From: an uncultured Pseudokineococcus sp.
GTDB lineage: Bacteria; Actinomycetota; Actinomycetes; Actinomycetales; Quadrisphaeraceae
Assembly: GCF_947499845.1 (NCBI RefSeq)
Contig: NZ_CANMPM010000001.1
Span: forward strand, 62,001 to 126,000
Direction of reading: 5' to 3'
Length of the DNA: 64,000 bases
The notes under the pieces are model-generated. The model worked only from the letters and a program-made list of their open reading frames with translations. It was not told the origin of the DNA and ran no database searches. Shown here in pieces: positions 6,501-39,732 of the stretch (position 1 is its first letter; each line of letters opens with the position of its first letter). Made by a program: the position numbers and the translations under genes.

Positions 6501-8015
6501 GTGGACCTGCAGCTGCTCCTCGCCCTCGTGCTCGGCATCGCGACGATCGTCGTGCTCGTCCTGCGGACGCGGCTCGACGCCTTCGTGGCGCTGCTCGTGG
6601 CCGCCCTCCTCACCGGCACCGTGGCCGGCTCGGCGCCCACGGACACCCTCGACTCGATCGTCGCCGGCTTCGGCAGCACGCTCGGGTCCATCGGGATCGT
6701 CATCGGCCTCGGCGTCGCGGTCGGCAAGATCCTCGAGGTCTCGGGCGCCGCGGACGCGCTCGCGAGGGCCTTCGTCCGCGCCCTCGGCCGCGGGCGCGAG
6801 CCCTGGGCCATGGGCGGCACCGGGGCCCTCGTCTCGATCCCCGTCTTCTGCGACTCCGGCTACGTGATCATGAACCCGCTGGCGCGCTCCATCGCCCGCC
6901 GCCGGCGGGGCGGCTACGTGACCCTGGCCCTCGCGCTCGGGTGCGGCATGACGCTGACCCACCACCTCGTGCCGCCGACGCCGGGGCCCCTCGCCGTCGC
7001 GGGGATCGTCGGCGCCGACCTCGGCGGCTTCATCCTCGTCGGCCTCGTCTTCACGCTCGTCCTGCTGCCCGTCGTCGTCGCGTACGCGCGGTGGGTCGGC
7101 CCGCGGCTCGAGGGCCGCGTGACCTCGGAGGTGCGCGAGGCCGTCTACGGACGGGCTGCCGGTGCCGGCGCGGGCGCGGGCGCGGGCGCCGCGGTGCTCG
7201 AGGAGGACGGGCCGAGGGGCGCGGCGAGCGACCGACGCGGGGGTGAGCGGGACGACGCGGCGGCGGAGGAGGACCCGGCCGCCGCGCTCGGCGAGCCGCC
7301 CGCCGGCGCCGGGCCGCACCGCGTGGGCACGCTGCGCGCCTTCCTGCCGCTGCTCGTGCCGCTGGCCCTCATCGTCGCCAACACCGTGGCCACCGCCGTC
7401 GACCGCAACGCGCAGGGCGTGCTCTCGGGCGACGAGGGGTACGACCCGTCCGGCCCGGTCGCGGTCCTCGCCTTCCTCGGCAACCCCGTGGTGGCGCTCA
7501 TCATCGGCGTGGTCATCGCCGTCTACGGGCTGCTGCCGCGGTGGACGACGCGCGACCAGGTGAGCGGCTGGCTCGCCCGGGCCGCGGCCTCGGCCGGGCT
7601 CATCATCCTCATCACCGGCGCCGGCGGGGCGCTCGGCCAGGTGCTGCGCGACTCGGGCGTCGGCCAGGAGCTCGCGGACGCCGTCGCCTCCCTCGCCCTG
7701 CCCGGGGTGCTCGTGCCCTTCCTCATCGCGACGCTCGTCCGGCTGGCGCAGGGCTCCGGCACCGTCGCCATGATCACGGCGGCGTCCGTGTCGGCCCCGC
7801 TCGTGGACGACCTCGGGCTCGCGCCCCTGGCCGCCGCGCTCGCCTGCTGCGCGGGCTCGATGGTGCTCAGCTACTTCAACGACTCCTACTTCTGGGTCGT
7901 CACGCGCTTCACCGGCCTCGAGGGCACGGCGGCGCTGCAGGGGTGGTCCGGCATCACGACGGCGGTGTGGGCCGGCTCGATCCCTCTGGTGCTCGTCGCG
8001 GGCGCCGTCCTCTGA
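6501..8015 (+). CDS. GntP-family permease (gluconate/organic-acid H+ symporter type)
   Basis: 504 residues, about 12 or more hydrophobic segments, starting 'VDLQLLLALVLGIATIVVL'. Conserved GntP features are present: 'IPVFCDSGYVIMNPLA' and 'HHLVPPTPGPLAVAGIVGADLG' in the first half and 'LVRLAQGSGTVAMITAA' and 'SYFNDSYFWVVTRF' in the second. A hydrophilic Ala/Gly/Glu-rich loop at about residues 215-275 separates the halves and is longer than usual. The family imports gluconate, other hexonates or similar acids. GTG start at 6501 with a weak GAGG upstream. Divergent from the SDR. Confidence 0.88.
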   Translation: MDLQLLLALVLGIATIVVLVLRTRLDAFVALLVAALLTGTVAGSAPTDTLDSIVAGFGSTLGSIGIVIGLGVAVGKILEVSGAADALARAFVRALGRGREPWAMGGTGALVSIPVFCDSGYVIMNPLARSIARRRRGGYVTLALALGCGMTLTHHLVPPTPGPLAVAGIVGADLGGFILVGLVFTLVLLPVVVAYARWVGPRLEGRVTSEVREAVYGRAAGAGAGAGAGAAVLEEDGPRGAASDRRGGERDDAAAEEDPAAALGEPPAGAGPHRVGTLRAFLPLLVPLALIVANTVATAVDRNAQGVLSGDEGYDPSGPVAVLAFLGNPVVALIIGVVIAVYGLLPRWTTRDQVSGWLARAAASAGLIILITGAGGALGQVLRDSGVGQELADAVASLALPGVLVPFLIATLVRLAQGSGTVAMITAASVSAPLVDDLGLAPLAAALACCAGSMVLSYFNDSYFWVVTRFTGLEGTAALQGWSGITTAVWAGSIPLVLVAGAVL

Positions 8016-36207: not shown

Positions 36208-37341
36208 GTGAGCACCCGCACCGACACCCCGCAGGCACCGGCCGACGACGCCTCCGGCACCGACCCCCGCCAGCTCTTCACCCCGGTGGTCCTGGGGGAC
36301 CTGCACCTGCGCAACCGCGTCGTCATGGCGCCGCTCACGCGCACCCGCGCGGGGGAGGACGGCGTGCCGGGCGACCTCCTCGTCGAGCACTACGCCCAGC
36401 GCGCCAGCGCCGGGCTCATCATCACCGAGGGCACCTACCCGACCCGGGAGGGCCGCGGCTACCCGGGCCAGCCCGGGATCGTCACCGACGAGCAGGCCGC
36501 CGGCTGGCGCCGCGTCGCGGACGCCGTCCACGCGCGGGGCGGGCTCCTCGTCATGCAGGTCATGCACGCGGGGCGCGTGGCGCACCCGGCCACGACCGGC
36601 ACCGACCGCGTCGTCGCCCCGAGCGCCGTCGTGCTCGAGGGGGAGGCGCACACCCCGCAGGGCAAGGTGGCCTACGCCGAGCCGCACGCGCTGACGACCG
36701 AGGAGGTCCAGCAGGTCGTCGCCGACCACGTGGCCGCCGCGCGCCGCGCCGTCGACGCCGGCCTTGACGGCGTCGAGCTGCACAGCGCCAACGGCTACCT
36801 GCTCCACGAGTTCCTCGCGCCCGACACCAACCACCGCACCGACGCCTACGGCGGCAGCCCGCAGGCGCGCGCCCGGCTCGTCGTCGAGGTCGCCCGGGCG
36901 GTCGCCGCCGAGGTGGGCCCGGGTCGCGTCGGCATCCGCATCTCGCCGGCGCACGGCGTCCAGGGGATCCCCGAGGCGGACGCCGACGACGTCGCCGCGA
37001 CCTACGGCGCGCTCGTCGACGGCCTCGCCCCGCTCGGCCTCGCCTACCTGAGCGTCCTGCGGGCCGACCCCACCGACGAGCTCACGCAGGACCTGCGCCG
37101 CCGCTCCGGGATGCCTCTCGTCGCGAACCGCGGGTTCAGCACGCCGACGACGCGCGAGTCGGCGTCCGCCCTCGTGGACGCGACCCACGCCGACGCCGTC
37201 GCCGTCGGGCGCGCGCTCATCGCCAACCCCGACCTCGTCGAGCGCTGGCGCGCCGGGGCCGGCGAGAACGAGCCCGACCCCTCGACCTTCTACGGCACGA
37301 CCGCCGAGGGCTACACGGACTACCCGCGCCTCACCGCCTGA
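36208..37341 (+). CDS. Old yellow enzyme family ene-reductase (FMN)
   Basis: 377 residues, typical OYE length. FMN- and substrate-binding features: 'APLTRTRA' at the start of the barrel, 'HAGR' in 'MQVMHAGRVAHP', the paired His/Asn motif 'ELHSANGYLLHEFL', 'RTDAYGGS', and the phosphate-binding 'VAVGRALIANPDL'. Enzymes of this family (NemA/YqjM-like) reduce activated alkenes or nitro compounds with NAD(P)H. GTG at 36208 chosen for the length match and the GAGAGG upstream. Followed by a 52-bp palindrome. Confidence 0.92.
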   Translation: MSTRTDTPQAPADDASGTDPRQLFTPVVLGDLHLRNRVVMAPLTRTRAGEDGVPGDLLVEHYAQRASAGLIITEGTYPTREGRGYPGQPGIVTDEQAAGWRRVADAVHARGGLLVMQVMHAGRVAHPATTGTDRVVAPSAVVLEGEAHTPQGKVAYAEPHALTTEEVQQVVADHVAAARRAVDAGLDGVELHSANGYLLHEFLAPDTNHRTDAYGGSPQARARLVVEVARAVAAEVGPGRVGIRISPAHGVQGIPEADADDVAATYGALVDGLAPLGLAYLSVLRADPTDELTQDLRRRSGMPLVANRGFSTPTTRESASALVDATHADAVAVGRALIANPDLVERWRAGAGENEPDPSTFYGTTAEGYTDYPRLTA

Positions 37342-37354
37342 CGGGAGGCGGCTC

Positions 37355-37406
37355 GGAAGTCGTCCACGAGCGTGACCGTGCACGGTCACGCTCGTGGACG
37401 ACTCCC
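37355..37406. repeat. 52-bp near-perfect palindrome, left copy
   Basis: The 46 bp at 37358-37403 are a perfect palindrome with no loop; extended to 52 bp there is one mismatched pair. It begins 14 nt after the OYE stop and covers the last codons and stop of the minus-strand AbiEi/DUF559-like gene, so it can terminate transcription from both sides. A near-identical copy is at 38383-38434. Confidence 0.9.
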
Positions 37407-38330
37407 GCTGTCGGGGTCCAGGTGGGCGCGCAGGAGCGCGACGACGCGCGCCTCGTCGAGCCGCAGCGCGAGTGCCGGCAGGCGCAGGACCGTCTCGCCG
37501 GGCCGGCTGACCTCGGCGGCGCGCAGCAGGTCGTCGTACCAGCGGCGCGGGTCGAGGTGGCCGACGCCGTCGACCTCCAGGAGCACCCGCCGGCCGTCGG
37601 CGAGCTGCCACTCGGCGTCGAGGTAGCGCCGCCGCCCGACGCCGTCCACGCGCACGGCCTGGCGCACGGGCGGGGGCAGCCGGTGCCGCCGGCAGAGCGC
37701 CGCGAGGTCGACCTCGGACATCGCCTGCGACCCGCCGGCCAGGTCCGCCAGGACGGCGACGAGCGCGCCGCGGTGGCGGACGGGGCCCACGCCCTCGAGC
37801 GCGGCGGCCAGTCGCGCCGGCGTCGTCAGCCGCTGCTGGACGACGGCGGCGAGGAGGCCGCACGCCGTCCGCTCGCCCGCGGACCACGCCGCGGCGTCCA
37901 CGGCGGCGCGCTCGACGCGGTGCAGCCGCACGCCGCCGCGCTCGGTGACGTCCTCCTCGCGCCAGCGGTGGCTGAGGTGCAGCGCGGACCCCGCCAGCGG
38001 CTCACCGCGCGACCGGCCTCGCGCGACGACGACGTGGACGTCGTCGCGGTCCCAGCCTTCGAGCCCGTGGACCGCCAGCGCCGTCCACGCCCCGAGGCAG
38101 GCGCCGGGACCGGCGTGGAGCAGCGCAGCCCACCGCTGCGCCGGTGCGGGCAGCGGCCCGGCGTGCAGCGCGACGACGCGCGGCCCGACCCGCTGCCACC
38201 GCCCGCCCCCGACGCGCCGCCTCACGACGTCGGGCCCGACGCCGTGGCGCCGCAGCTGCGACCGGCCGAGGCAGCCCTCCTGCACCCGCGCGAGCTCGGC
38301 GAGAGGGCCGGGCAGGGCGTCCATCCGCAC
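37386..38330 (-). CDS. AbiEi-like N-terminal winged helix with DUF559/Vsr-like C-terminal domain
   Basis: 314 residues. The N-terminal part ('CLGRSQLRRHGVGPDVVRRRVGGGRWQRVGPRVVALH') has the form of the AbiEi antitoxin / transcriptional-regulator domain. The C-terminal part ('RYLDAEWQLADGRRVLLEVDGVGHLDPRRWYDDLLRAAEV') resembles DUF559, a Vsr-like endonuclease fold with E-V-D-G and a distal D. No AbiEii toxin gene is adjacent. Start at the GTG 38330 because CAGCCT lies 6 nt upstream (leaderless pattern). Palindromes bracket the gene. Function unknown; related genes are common, often multi-copy, in actinobacteria. Confidence 0.75.
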   Translation of the reverse strand: MRMDALPGPLAELARVQEGCLGRSQLRRHGVGPDVVRRRVGGGRWQRVGPRVVALHAGPLPAPAQRWAALLHAGPGACLGAWTALAVHGLEGWDRDDVHVVVARGRSRGEPLAGSALHLSHRWREEDVTERGGVRLHRVERAAVDAAAWSAGERTACGLLAAVVQQRLTTPARLAAALEGVGPVRHRGALVAVLADLAGGSQAMSEVDLAALCRRHRLPPPVRQAVRVDGVGRRRYLDAEWQLADGRRVLLEVDGVGHLDPRRWYDDLLRAAEVSRPGETVLRLPALALRLDEARVVALLRAHLDPDSGSRPRA

Positions 38331-38382
38331 CCCGCGAGGCTGCCCGGGACGGCGAGGCCCGCGCTGAGGGGCTGTGGACAGC

Positions 38383-38434
38383 GGAAGTCGTCCACGAGCG
38401 TGACCGTCCACGGTCACCCTCGTGGACGTCTTCC
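38383..38434. repeat. 52-bp palindrome, right copy
   Basis: Differs from the left copy at five positions over 52 bp and has three mismatched pairs as a palindrome. It lies 53 bp upstream of the AbiEi/DUF559-like start and 20 nt beyond the stop of the minus-strand MFS gene. Conserved core arms read CGTCCACGAGCGTGACCGT on the left. Confidence 0.9.
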
Positions 38435-38454
38435 CGCGAGGGAGCGCCCGGCCG

Positions 38455-39732
38455 TCAGCCGGCGTCGAGCGCCGCGGCGCGCCGTGCGCTGCGCGACCAG
38501 CCCGGCTGGGCCCCGAGGGCCAGCGCCGTCGCCACGGAAAGGGCGGCGGAGCCGGCGGCCAGGGAGAGCGGTGGCCCGCCGAGGTCCACGAGCAGGCCGG
38601 CGGCGGCGGTGCCGCCGGCGCCCCCGGTCACGACGGCGGTGGCCAGCCACGCCTGGCTCTCCCCGCGCCGCCCCTCGGGGGCGACCGAGTCCACGAGGGC
38701 CTGCTGGACGATGAGCGCGGGGGCGATGCACAGGCCCGTGAGGAAGAGGACCGGCAGCAGCAGGGGCAGCGGCGCCCCGGCGCCGACGACGACGGCCACG
38801 CCCGCCAGGCCGGCGGTGAAGGCCGCGAGCAGCGCCGGGAGGCGCCGCCGCTCGTCGCCGGAGTGGGGCAGCAGGCCGTACAGCAGGCCCCCGAGGACGC
38901 TGCCGCCGGCGATCGAGGCCAGCAGCACCCCGAGCCGCGACTCGTCGCCGAGGACGGCGCGCGCCGTCGCGGCCATCGAGGTGTCCACGAAGCCGAAGGC
39001 CACCGCCATGGCGAGCCCGACGGCGAGCACGGCGACGAGCGGCGGGGTGAGGACGCGCGAGGCCCGCCGCAGCGGGTCGGCGTCCACCACCGCCCCCAGC
39101 GCGCCGTCCAGGGCGGCGGTGCGCTCCGGCGGGCGGCGGGCGGGCTCGCTCGCGGCGTACGTGAGACCGCCGACGGCGTGGACGACGGCGGTGACGAGGA
39201 GCGGCCCGGCGGGCGGCAGGTGCAGCAGCAGCGACAGCAGCAGGGGGCCGCCGACGAAGACGGCCTCCACGGCCGACGCGTCGAGCGCGTAGCCGGTGCG
39301 CCACAGCCGCTCCGGCAGGACCGACCGCCACGACAGCCGCATGGCCGAGCTGATGGGCGGGGCGGTGGCGCCGGCGACGACGACGAGCACGAGCAGCAGG
39401 GCGAGCGGGGCGAGGGCCTCGGCCGCGAGCGCGAAGGCGGCGAGCAGCGCCGCGCTGACGAGGACGGTCGGGGCGACGAGGCGCGCCTGGCCGTGGCGGT
39501 CGATCAGGCGGCCCCACATCGGCGAGCCGACACCGATGCCGATGGCGTAGCCGGCGGTGACGAGGCCCGCGGCGGAGAACGACCCCCGCGTCTCCTCGAC
39601 GAGCAGCAGCGTCCCGAACGGCACCATGGAGATCGGCAGCCGGGCCACCACGGCGGCGGCGAAGGGCCGCACGGCGGAGCCGGTGCGCAGGACCTCGAGG
39701 TAGGCCCCGAGGCCCCCGGCACCGCTCGTCAC
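38455..39732 (-). CDS. MFS transporter (drug-efflux-like)
   Basis: 425 residues with 12 predicted membrane helices and a cytoplasmic loop at about residues 200-220. 'GSPMWGRLIDRHGQARL' is the loop-2/3 MFS motif. No substrate signature is recognised; sequence character is that of exporters. GTG at 39732 is preceded 6 nt upstream by TAGGGT, a good leaderless-type -10. Confidence 0.85.
   Translation of the reverse strand: MTSGAGGLGAYLEVLRTGSAVRPFAAAVVARLPISMVPFGTLLLVEETRGSFSAAGLVTAGYAIGIGVGSPMWGRLIDRHGQARLVAPTVLVSAALLAAFALAAEALAPLALLLVLVVVAGATAPPISSAMRLSWRSVLPERLWRTGYALDASAVEAVFVGGPLLLSLLLHLPPAGPLLVTAVVHAVGGLTYAASEPARRPPERTAALDGALGAVVDADPLRRASRVLTPPLVAVLAVGLAMAVAFGFVDTSMAATARAVLGDESRLGVLLASIAGGSVLGGLLYGLLPHSGDERRRLPALLAAFTAGLAGVAVVVGAGAPLPLLLPVLFLTGLCIAPALIVQQALVDSVAPEGRRGESQAWLATAVVTGGAGGTAAAGLLVDLGGPPLSLAAGSAALSVATALALGAQPGWSRSARRAAALDAG

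Follow-up and report, generated by a model that had tools for sequence, protein, structure and literature searches.

A single type of enzyme, the RAYTs, has been proposed as the maker of REP palindromes (Nunvar et al. 2010, PMC2817692). AbiEi antitoxins are reported to bind to inverted repeats within the promoters of their own genes (PMC7319586). Among the open-access papers listed by our searches, none describes palindrome-flanked DUF559 or AbiEi genes in its title or the opening of its abstract; subscription journals and preprints lie outside this scope.

The window, a 64,000-nucleotide (nt) stretch from the genome of an uncultured Pseudokineococcus sp. (G000), contains a gene for an AbiEi-like, DUF559/Vsr-type protein with a long palindrome at each end. 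This palindrome–nuclease gene–palindrome layout is real and is one instance of a recurrent arrangement. The unit is probably a small cassette that is, or once was, mobile, REP/RAYT-like in its working and built on a nonhomologous nuclease.

Anatomy of the cassette and its protein

The left palindrome (37354 to 37407), on the 3' side of the gene, pairs at 26 of its 27 arm positions with no spacer, a match that the original prediction had understated as 19 identical bp. The right palindrome (38383 to 38434), on the 5' side, has 25-nt arms that are 92% complementary around a 2-nt spacer, and it is 92% identical to the left copy across 53 nt. Together the copies form a 58-nt inverted pair (37355 to 37412 on the plus strand and 38377 to 38434 on the minus strand; 93% match), the inverted match continuing past the palindrome toward the gene by 6 nt. 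Between them lies the gene (37386 to 38324, minus strand), which encodes 312 amino acids comprising an AbiEi-like N-terminal part and a DUF559/Vsr-type nuclease. Its TGA stop codon (37386 to 37388, minus strand) falls within the left palindrome, and translation probably begins at the ATG at 38324, 58 nt from the right palindrome. Two near-identical long palindromes at the gene ends, one of them covering the stop codon, are therefore present as originally predicted.

A degenerate form of the palindrome core (up to 3 mismatches) occurs at two sites in the 64-kb window, both of them cassette ends and each on both strands, and had zero matches in 100 shuffles of the window. Scanning of positions 36800 to 39000 found no T-tailed terminator, and none of the four Rfam matches in this interval at E ≤ 1 came near the gathering score. 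The neighboring genes match Oxidored_FMN (plus strand, ending at 37341) and MFS_1 (minus strand, ending at 38455), so that the predicted lack of a toxin partner holds for the direct neighbors. The cassette gene is free-standing between these two genes, with both palindromes intact, no intron or intein, and its own target uninterrupted.

The AbiEi-like region of the protein (residues 1 to 196; 37737 to 38324, minus strand) was delimited with PADLOC, Foldseek, and VIA-align, with residues 69 to 119 poorly modeled. The best PADLOC AbiEi match of the window protein has an E value of 1.5e-19 and spans residues 8 to 177 only, and a PADLOC AbiEi model matches all 21 aligned members of the family. In Pfam, the window protein reached AbiEi_4 only below the cutoff (15 versus 25 bits) and had no match to PF04480 (DUF559) at E ≤ 10; the 21 aligned homologs, at E ≤ 0.01, gave AbiEi_4 in 10 cases, AbiEi_1 in 7, DUF559 (PF04480) in 3, and MTES_1575 in 1. 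The AlphaFold model, built from 7 sequences and of only intermediate quality (mean pLDDT, 66; pTM, 0.56), had no Foldseek match at E ≤ 0.001. Its best solved match was the Streptococcus agalactiae AbiEi antitoxin (6y8q; E = 2.5e-3), to which VIA-align aligned residues 1 to 196 with values that are weak if taken alone (Z, 5.9; rmsd, 11.5; 167 aligned).

The C-terminal nuclease domain (residues 200 to 307; 37404 to 37727, minus strand) is marked by invariant residues and by VIA-align fold matches. Among solved folds, that of I-Bth0305I, a homing endonuclease (3r3p; Z, 9.7; rmsd, 3.9; 95 aligned), comes closest, and 3hrl, an endonuclease-like protein, also aligns (Z, 9.2; rmsd, 3.1; 91 aligned); in profile comparison, 3hrl was matched at E = 0.0054 and 3r3p only at E = 0.44. 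E204, D236, E250, and R268 are invariant across the 21 aligned homologs, and the nuclease site therefore looks intact. Y1 families are absent from the Pfam matches of the 21 members, and the VIA-align matches listed for the window protein, such lists being no proof of absence, include no Y1-type transposase. The combination of an antitoxin-like winged helix and a Vsr-like nuclease fold that was first read from the DNA is supported by PADLOC, Foldseek, VIA-align, and the Pfam matches of homologs.

Paired flanking repeats across Actinomycetota

With up to 15 candidates scored per genome, homologs of the cassette protein were found in at least 48 of 149 genomes of the phylum. Flanking repeats were scored in 101 homolog loci, 59 from homolog searches and 42 hand-picked down the phylum-search ranking, with duplicate views (L062 to L067, L075, L079, and L117 to L122) left out and one locus (L102) unscorable at a contig end; repeats in either orientation were counted, and the loci are partly orthologs and so not all independent. 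Upstream and downstream repeats matched each other (score of ≥20) in 59 of the 100 scored homologs versus 3 of 118 control open reading frames (ORFs) from the same loci, and a null in which the upstream region of one locus was compared with the downstream region of another reached this score in 5 of 600 cases. The remaining 41 homologs had no detectable matching pair, and palindromes thus do not always flank such genes. Among the 59 positives, a hairpin at z < −2 relative to shuffles was present in both copies in 43 and in at least one copy in 51. When the scoring windows were instead defined from the ORF of each locus and the plasmid and phage records described below were included, 58 of 102 were positive, with L037, L048, and L061 missed; in 47 of these 58, the downstream copy overlaps the stop codon or lies within 30 bp of it.

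That the gene is a stand-alone antiphage defense gene whose repeats are functionally unimportant is extremely improbable: the PADLOC model matches in all 21 aligned members fit this reading, but no AbiEii toxin adjoins the gene, the best match of the window protein is limited to part of its length, and most scored homologs have paired repeats.

The palindrome sequence varies between members, and the two copies belonging to one member match (in L057, over all 55 letters). Similarity between palindromes follows similarity between proteins only slightly (Spearman coefficient of 0.13, reached by 1 of 999 permutations), and a clearly common palindrome sequence is confined to the three closest protein pairs; coevolution of palindrome and protein over long distances is therefore weak and was set aside. 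The source genome has at least six listed members, four with both repeat copies and two (L032 and L034) with a recognizable copy on one side only. As a separate observation, two members with different palindromes flank a single gene on G000 contig 11 (L073:4370-5305 and 6531-7670), and the same pair recurs in genome G001 (L116), where one member is cut by the contig end. At L038, L087, L100, L124, L136, L151, L156, and L162 there are apparently two or more repeats per side, recalling REPIN- or BIME-like doublets.

No plasmid homologs were found with the window protein as the query or with another member; a distant member returned 19 plasmid records, of which a single one (Tsukamurella) reaches a query coverage of ≥80%. 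This gene, the best of those plasmid hits, on a Tsukamurella tyrosinosolvens plasmid and annotated as DUF559, has paired flanking repeats, as does a 38%-identical member on a phage scaffold from human feces (L236:3501-4226), the sole phage-collection match of the window protein. Both records were picked by protein similarity and their repeats tested afterwards, with repeat-pair scores of 34.5 (Tsukamurella plasmid) and 33 (phage scaffold).

Between the right palindrome and the start codon of the window gene is a TCCACAG motif (38372 to 38378, minus strand), which recurs upstream of homologs. It is present in 30 of 101 upstream regions, 28 to 100 nt ahead of the start of homology, versus 5 of 101 on the opposite strand and 5 of 303 random windows from the same loci, controls that include coding DNA. 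The shorter TCCACA occurs in 36 of the 100 stretches of 140 bp taken upstream, compared with 5 of the 100 taken downstream, and its association with paired repeats is borderline (P = 0.057). We take TCCACAG to resemble the actinobacterial DnaA box.

Solo palindromes and empty sites

A blastn search of G000 with a 65-base palindrome query gave 32 matches, which merge across both strands into 16 places. Sites of the window's palindrome type (A type) were counted with an 18-bp core allowing one mismatch and with the reversed pattern as a control. G000 has 22 such sites (2 in the cassette and 20 solo); of its relatives, G001 has 19, G003 has 8, and G002 has none. The control had no site in any of these four genomes. 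A homolog of the window protein is present in G001 (98% identity) and G003 (72%), and the homologs in G002, which are 56 to 63% identical and have different palindromes, include no A-type cognate protein. G002 and G003, both of which carry a B-type cassette, have 8 and 3 sites of the B-type core, respectively, and G000, G001, and G006 have none, again with no control matches. A- and B-type palindromes thus co-occur with their cognate proteins, a correlation based on four and five genomes, respectively. The D type is less clean than A and B: its arm pattern gives paired sites in G000, G001, and G003, variant arms also occur in G002 despite no D-type gene being seen there, and its control pattern has one match each in G003 and G006.

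Gene calls from a simple codon-usage script were used to place 49 A-type sites of G000, G001, and G003, among them six cassette ends; sites with more core mismatches are missed by this survey. All but one (48 of 49) lie outside called genes. For 33 of them a gene 3' end is no more than 100 bp away, and 18 are flanked by convergent and 10 by divergent genes. For comparison, 4 of the 37 window gaps longer than 40 bp are convergent and 8 are divergent. In G001, an unrelated perfect 50-bp palindrome (L107:1987-2036) lies near an A-type solo palindrome. Separately, GACGGCCCC-containing hairpins with variable arms are found near gene ends in the same genus (L185:3686-3722, L186:6849-6892, and L211:761-801); these hairpins resemble ordinary terminators.

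The 3'-end bias bears on a regulatory reading, which we regard as unlikely. An AbiEi-type autorepressor would act on the upstream palindrome as its operator, and the downstream and solo copies would be bidirectional hairpin terminators or the regulon of the same factor. The reported binding of AbiEi antitoxins to inverted repeats in their own promoters (PMC7319586) agrees with such an arrangement, as do the excess of convergent gaps (18 of 49 sites, versus 4 of 37 window gaps) and the proximity to 3' ends. This reading leaves unexplained why operator and terminator would have one sequence, why palindrome pairs differ jointly from element to element, why cassette positions differ between species with empty sites (below), and why the nuclease residues are conserved; it also sits poorly with the lack of a T-tailed terminator from 36800 to 39000 and with the 10 sites between divergent genes.

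Palindromicity is maintained as the sequence changes. Across the A-type sites, 1,106 of 1,225 arm cells (90%) pair, compared with 74% when arms are shuffled among sites (maximum of 79% in 500 shuffles), and the arms covary, many positions showing several kinds of compensatory pair. At solo sites beside orthologous genes in different species, both arms change together (e.g., L203/L192 and L187/L071). The arm mismatches comprise 17 GT and 22 AC, types that cannot separate an RNA from a DNA hairpin because orientation is arbitrary. In the 15 nt outside the 49 palindromes, with both flanks pooled, no base is strongly conserved, and in a test for the conserved GT(A/G)G head of REP elements the orientation of the perfect palindromes was ambiguous.

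The possibility that the palindromes are plain terminators after unrelated genes, raised at the outset as what would undo the cassette interpretation, fits the data in part, in that 20 of 22 core sites in the source genome are solo and 33 of the 49 lie near 3' ends. As a whole explanation it was rejected, because the copies form one sequence family that tracks the cognate protein and because no T-tail was found from 36800 to 39000. A broader version, in which ordinary 3' terminators are kept palindromic by replication template switching or by selection and the gene is a bystander between two of them, is very improbable. The 3'-end bias and the solo sites that keep orthologous places across species with both arms changed would follow from it, but the paired repeats of 59 of 100 homologs versus 3 of 118 control ORFs would not, nor would the co-occurrence of palindrome type and cognate protein.

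Same-type cassettes occupy different positions in sister species, and loci without a cassette, which the cassette interpretation had called for, exist at three places. At the D-type locus, the G000 cassette lies between two genes. A 47-bp gap separates the orthologs of these genes in G003 (83% and 89% identical), where a D-type cassette with 85% identity is found beyond the second gene. At the dapB locus, the member is of the E type in G000 and G001 and of the F type in G002; the genes that flank it in G002 are separated in G003 by 75 bp, within which lies a single A-type solo palindrome. At mutM-acyP-smc, G002 and G003 carry a B-type cassette, G006 has a 26-bp gap, and G000 and G001 have another gene. 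The place orthologous to the window cassette is occupied in G003 by a different gene, presumably DsbA-like, and the A-type cassette of G003 sits where G000 and G001 carry a different gene; since different loci hold other genes in the other species, independent acquisition of the A-type cassettes is possible. A family profile run over the stretches called empty or otherwise filled found no member. Junctions are too diverged for target-site duplications or precise boundaries to be read, and recent copies of a cassette that are nearly identical to each other were not observed.

The dapB locus also bears on a homing-endonuclease-like origin, in which the protein would cut solo palindromes in double-stranded DNA, break repair would copy the cassette in with a palindrome on each side, and recombinational loss would leave a solo palindrome. 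The fold closest to the nuclease domain (I-Bth0305I) is that of a homing enzyme, and G003 has a solo palindrome where G002 has a cassette; that solo palindrome, however, differs in type from those of the G002 cassette. Homing genes normally interrupt their target, thereby protecting it, but both flanking palindromes are intact in the window. Overall, we regard this origin as doubtful.

Ten loci, the cassette among them, have their palindrome in both G000 and G001, and because of this, present-day movement is not obvious; such common sites are overrepresented because the G001 loci were chosen for carrying a palindrome. One locus (L026) lacks the palindrome in G001. Seven G000 sites (L002, L006, L009, L010, L187, L202, and L204) and five G001 sites (L195 and L197 to L200) have no counterpart among the fetched palindrome loci of the other genome, and these may be real differences or assembly gaps. 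The cassette protein, 98% identical between G000 and G001, evolves no faster than its neighbors (93 to 100%). For the mobile-cassette interpretation, this pace counts as a point against, along with the 41 of 100 homologs without a pair, the lack of a target duplication, and the 3'-end bias, which terminators would also produce.

Proposed working and comparison with known systems

Under the mobile-cassette interpretation, the AbiEi-type winged helix would recognize the cognate palindrome, and the Vsr/DUF559-type domain would nick or cut at it, possibly as a hairpin extruded during replication. The cassette and the nonautonomous solo palindromes would then be copied or moved into intergenic gaps. 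Binding and cutting of the palindrome by the protein are suggested by the modeled fold, by the linkage of gene and repeat, and, through analogy, by the inverted-repeat binding already known for AbiEi proteins; the protein would also cause the dispersal of the palindromes and mobilize the cassette. As originally proposed, a self-contained, REP-like cassette is supported. Actinomycetota could well harbor a second, independently evolved REP system in which palindrome-flanked AbiEi-Vsr nucleases each create and spread their own palindrome, and TCCACAG would tie the unit to replication.

If so, the partnership of palindromic repeats with solitary nucleases would have arisen two or more times in evolution, and a set of actinobacterial genes now classified as AbiEi antitoxin or DUF559 would gain a testable role. 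The DNA target of each enzyme would be predictable, because its likely recognition sequence stands at both gene ends, making a family of uncharacterized nucleases directly testable.

The cassette resembles AbiE type IV toxin-antitoxin systems in its N-terminal fold, in its AbiEi profile matches, and in the reported ability of AbiEi proteins to bind inverted repeats (PMC7319586). Unlike those systems, it has no adjacent AbiEii (DUF1814) nucleotidyltransferase toxin, its protein has a C-terminal nuclease domain, and palindromes stand at both gene ends. The C-terminal fold and conserved acidic residues are those of I-Bth0305I-type homing endonucleases, Vsr, and DUF559 endonuclease-like proteins (3r3p and 3hrl), but in contrast to I-Bth0305I-type homing endonucleases, the cassette lies outside any intron or intein and is flanked by two intact palindromes, interrupting none. 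With MITEs and insertion sequences it has in common a short, dispersed inverted-repeat sequence, terminal copies, and empty sites; it differs in having no known transposase domain, no observed target-site duplication, and a full palindrome at each end.

The comparison with REP/RAYT systems (PMC2817692) extends to several features: a nuclease ORF between two palindromes in inverted arrangement (here the 58-nt inverted pair), solo copies elsewhere that are nearly all extragenic, a gene whose presence goes with that of cognate repeats, and palindromicity that is maintained as the sequence changes. The differences are that the enzyme here combines an AbiEi-like part with a Vsr/DUF559 fold and has no Y1 match, that there are about 20 core copies rather than the more than 100 per genome usually given for REPs, that the palindromes are about 50 bp long and nearly perfect, and that the cassette protein shows no accelerated evolution, whereas RAYTs are described as evolving fast; coevolution of repeat and protein appears here only among close relatives. 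PF01797 (Y1 transposase) has matches in 5 of 14 control genomes and no match in the source genome, and a RAYT was rejected as the mobilizer of the palindromes on this ground. Because its enzyme is unrelated, the cassette would be REP/RAYT-like in its working but not itself a REP/RAYT.
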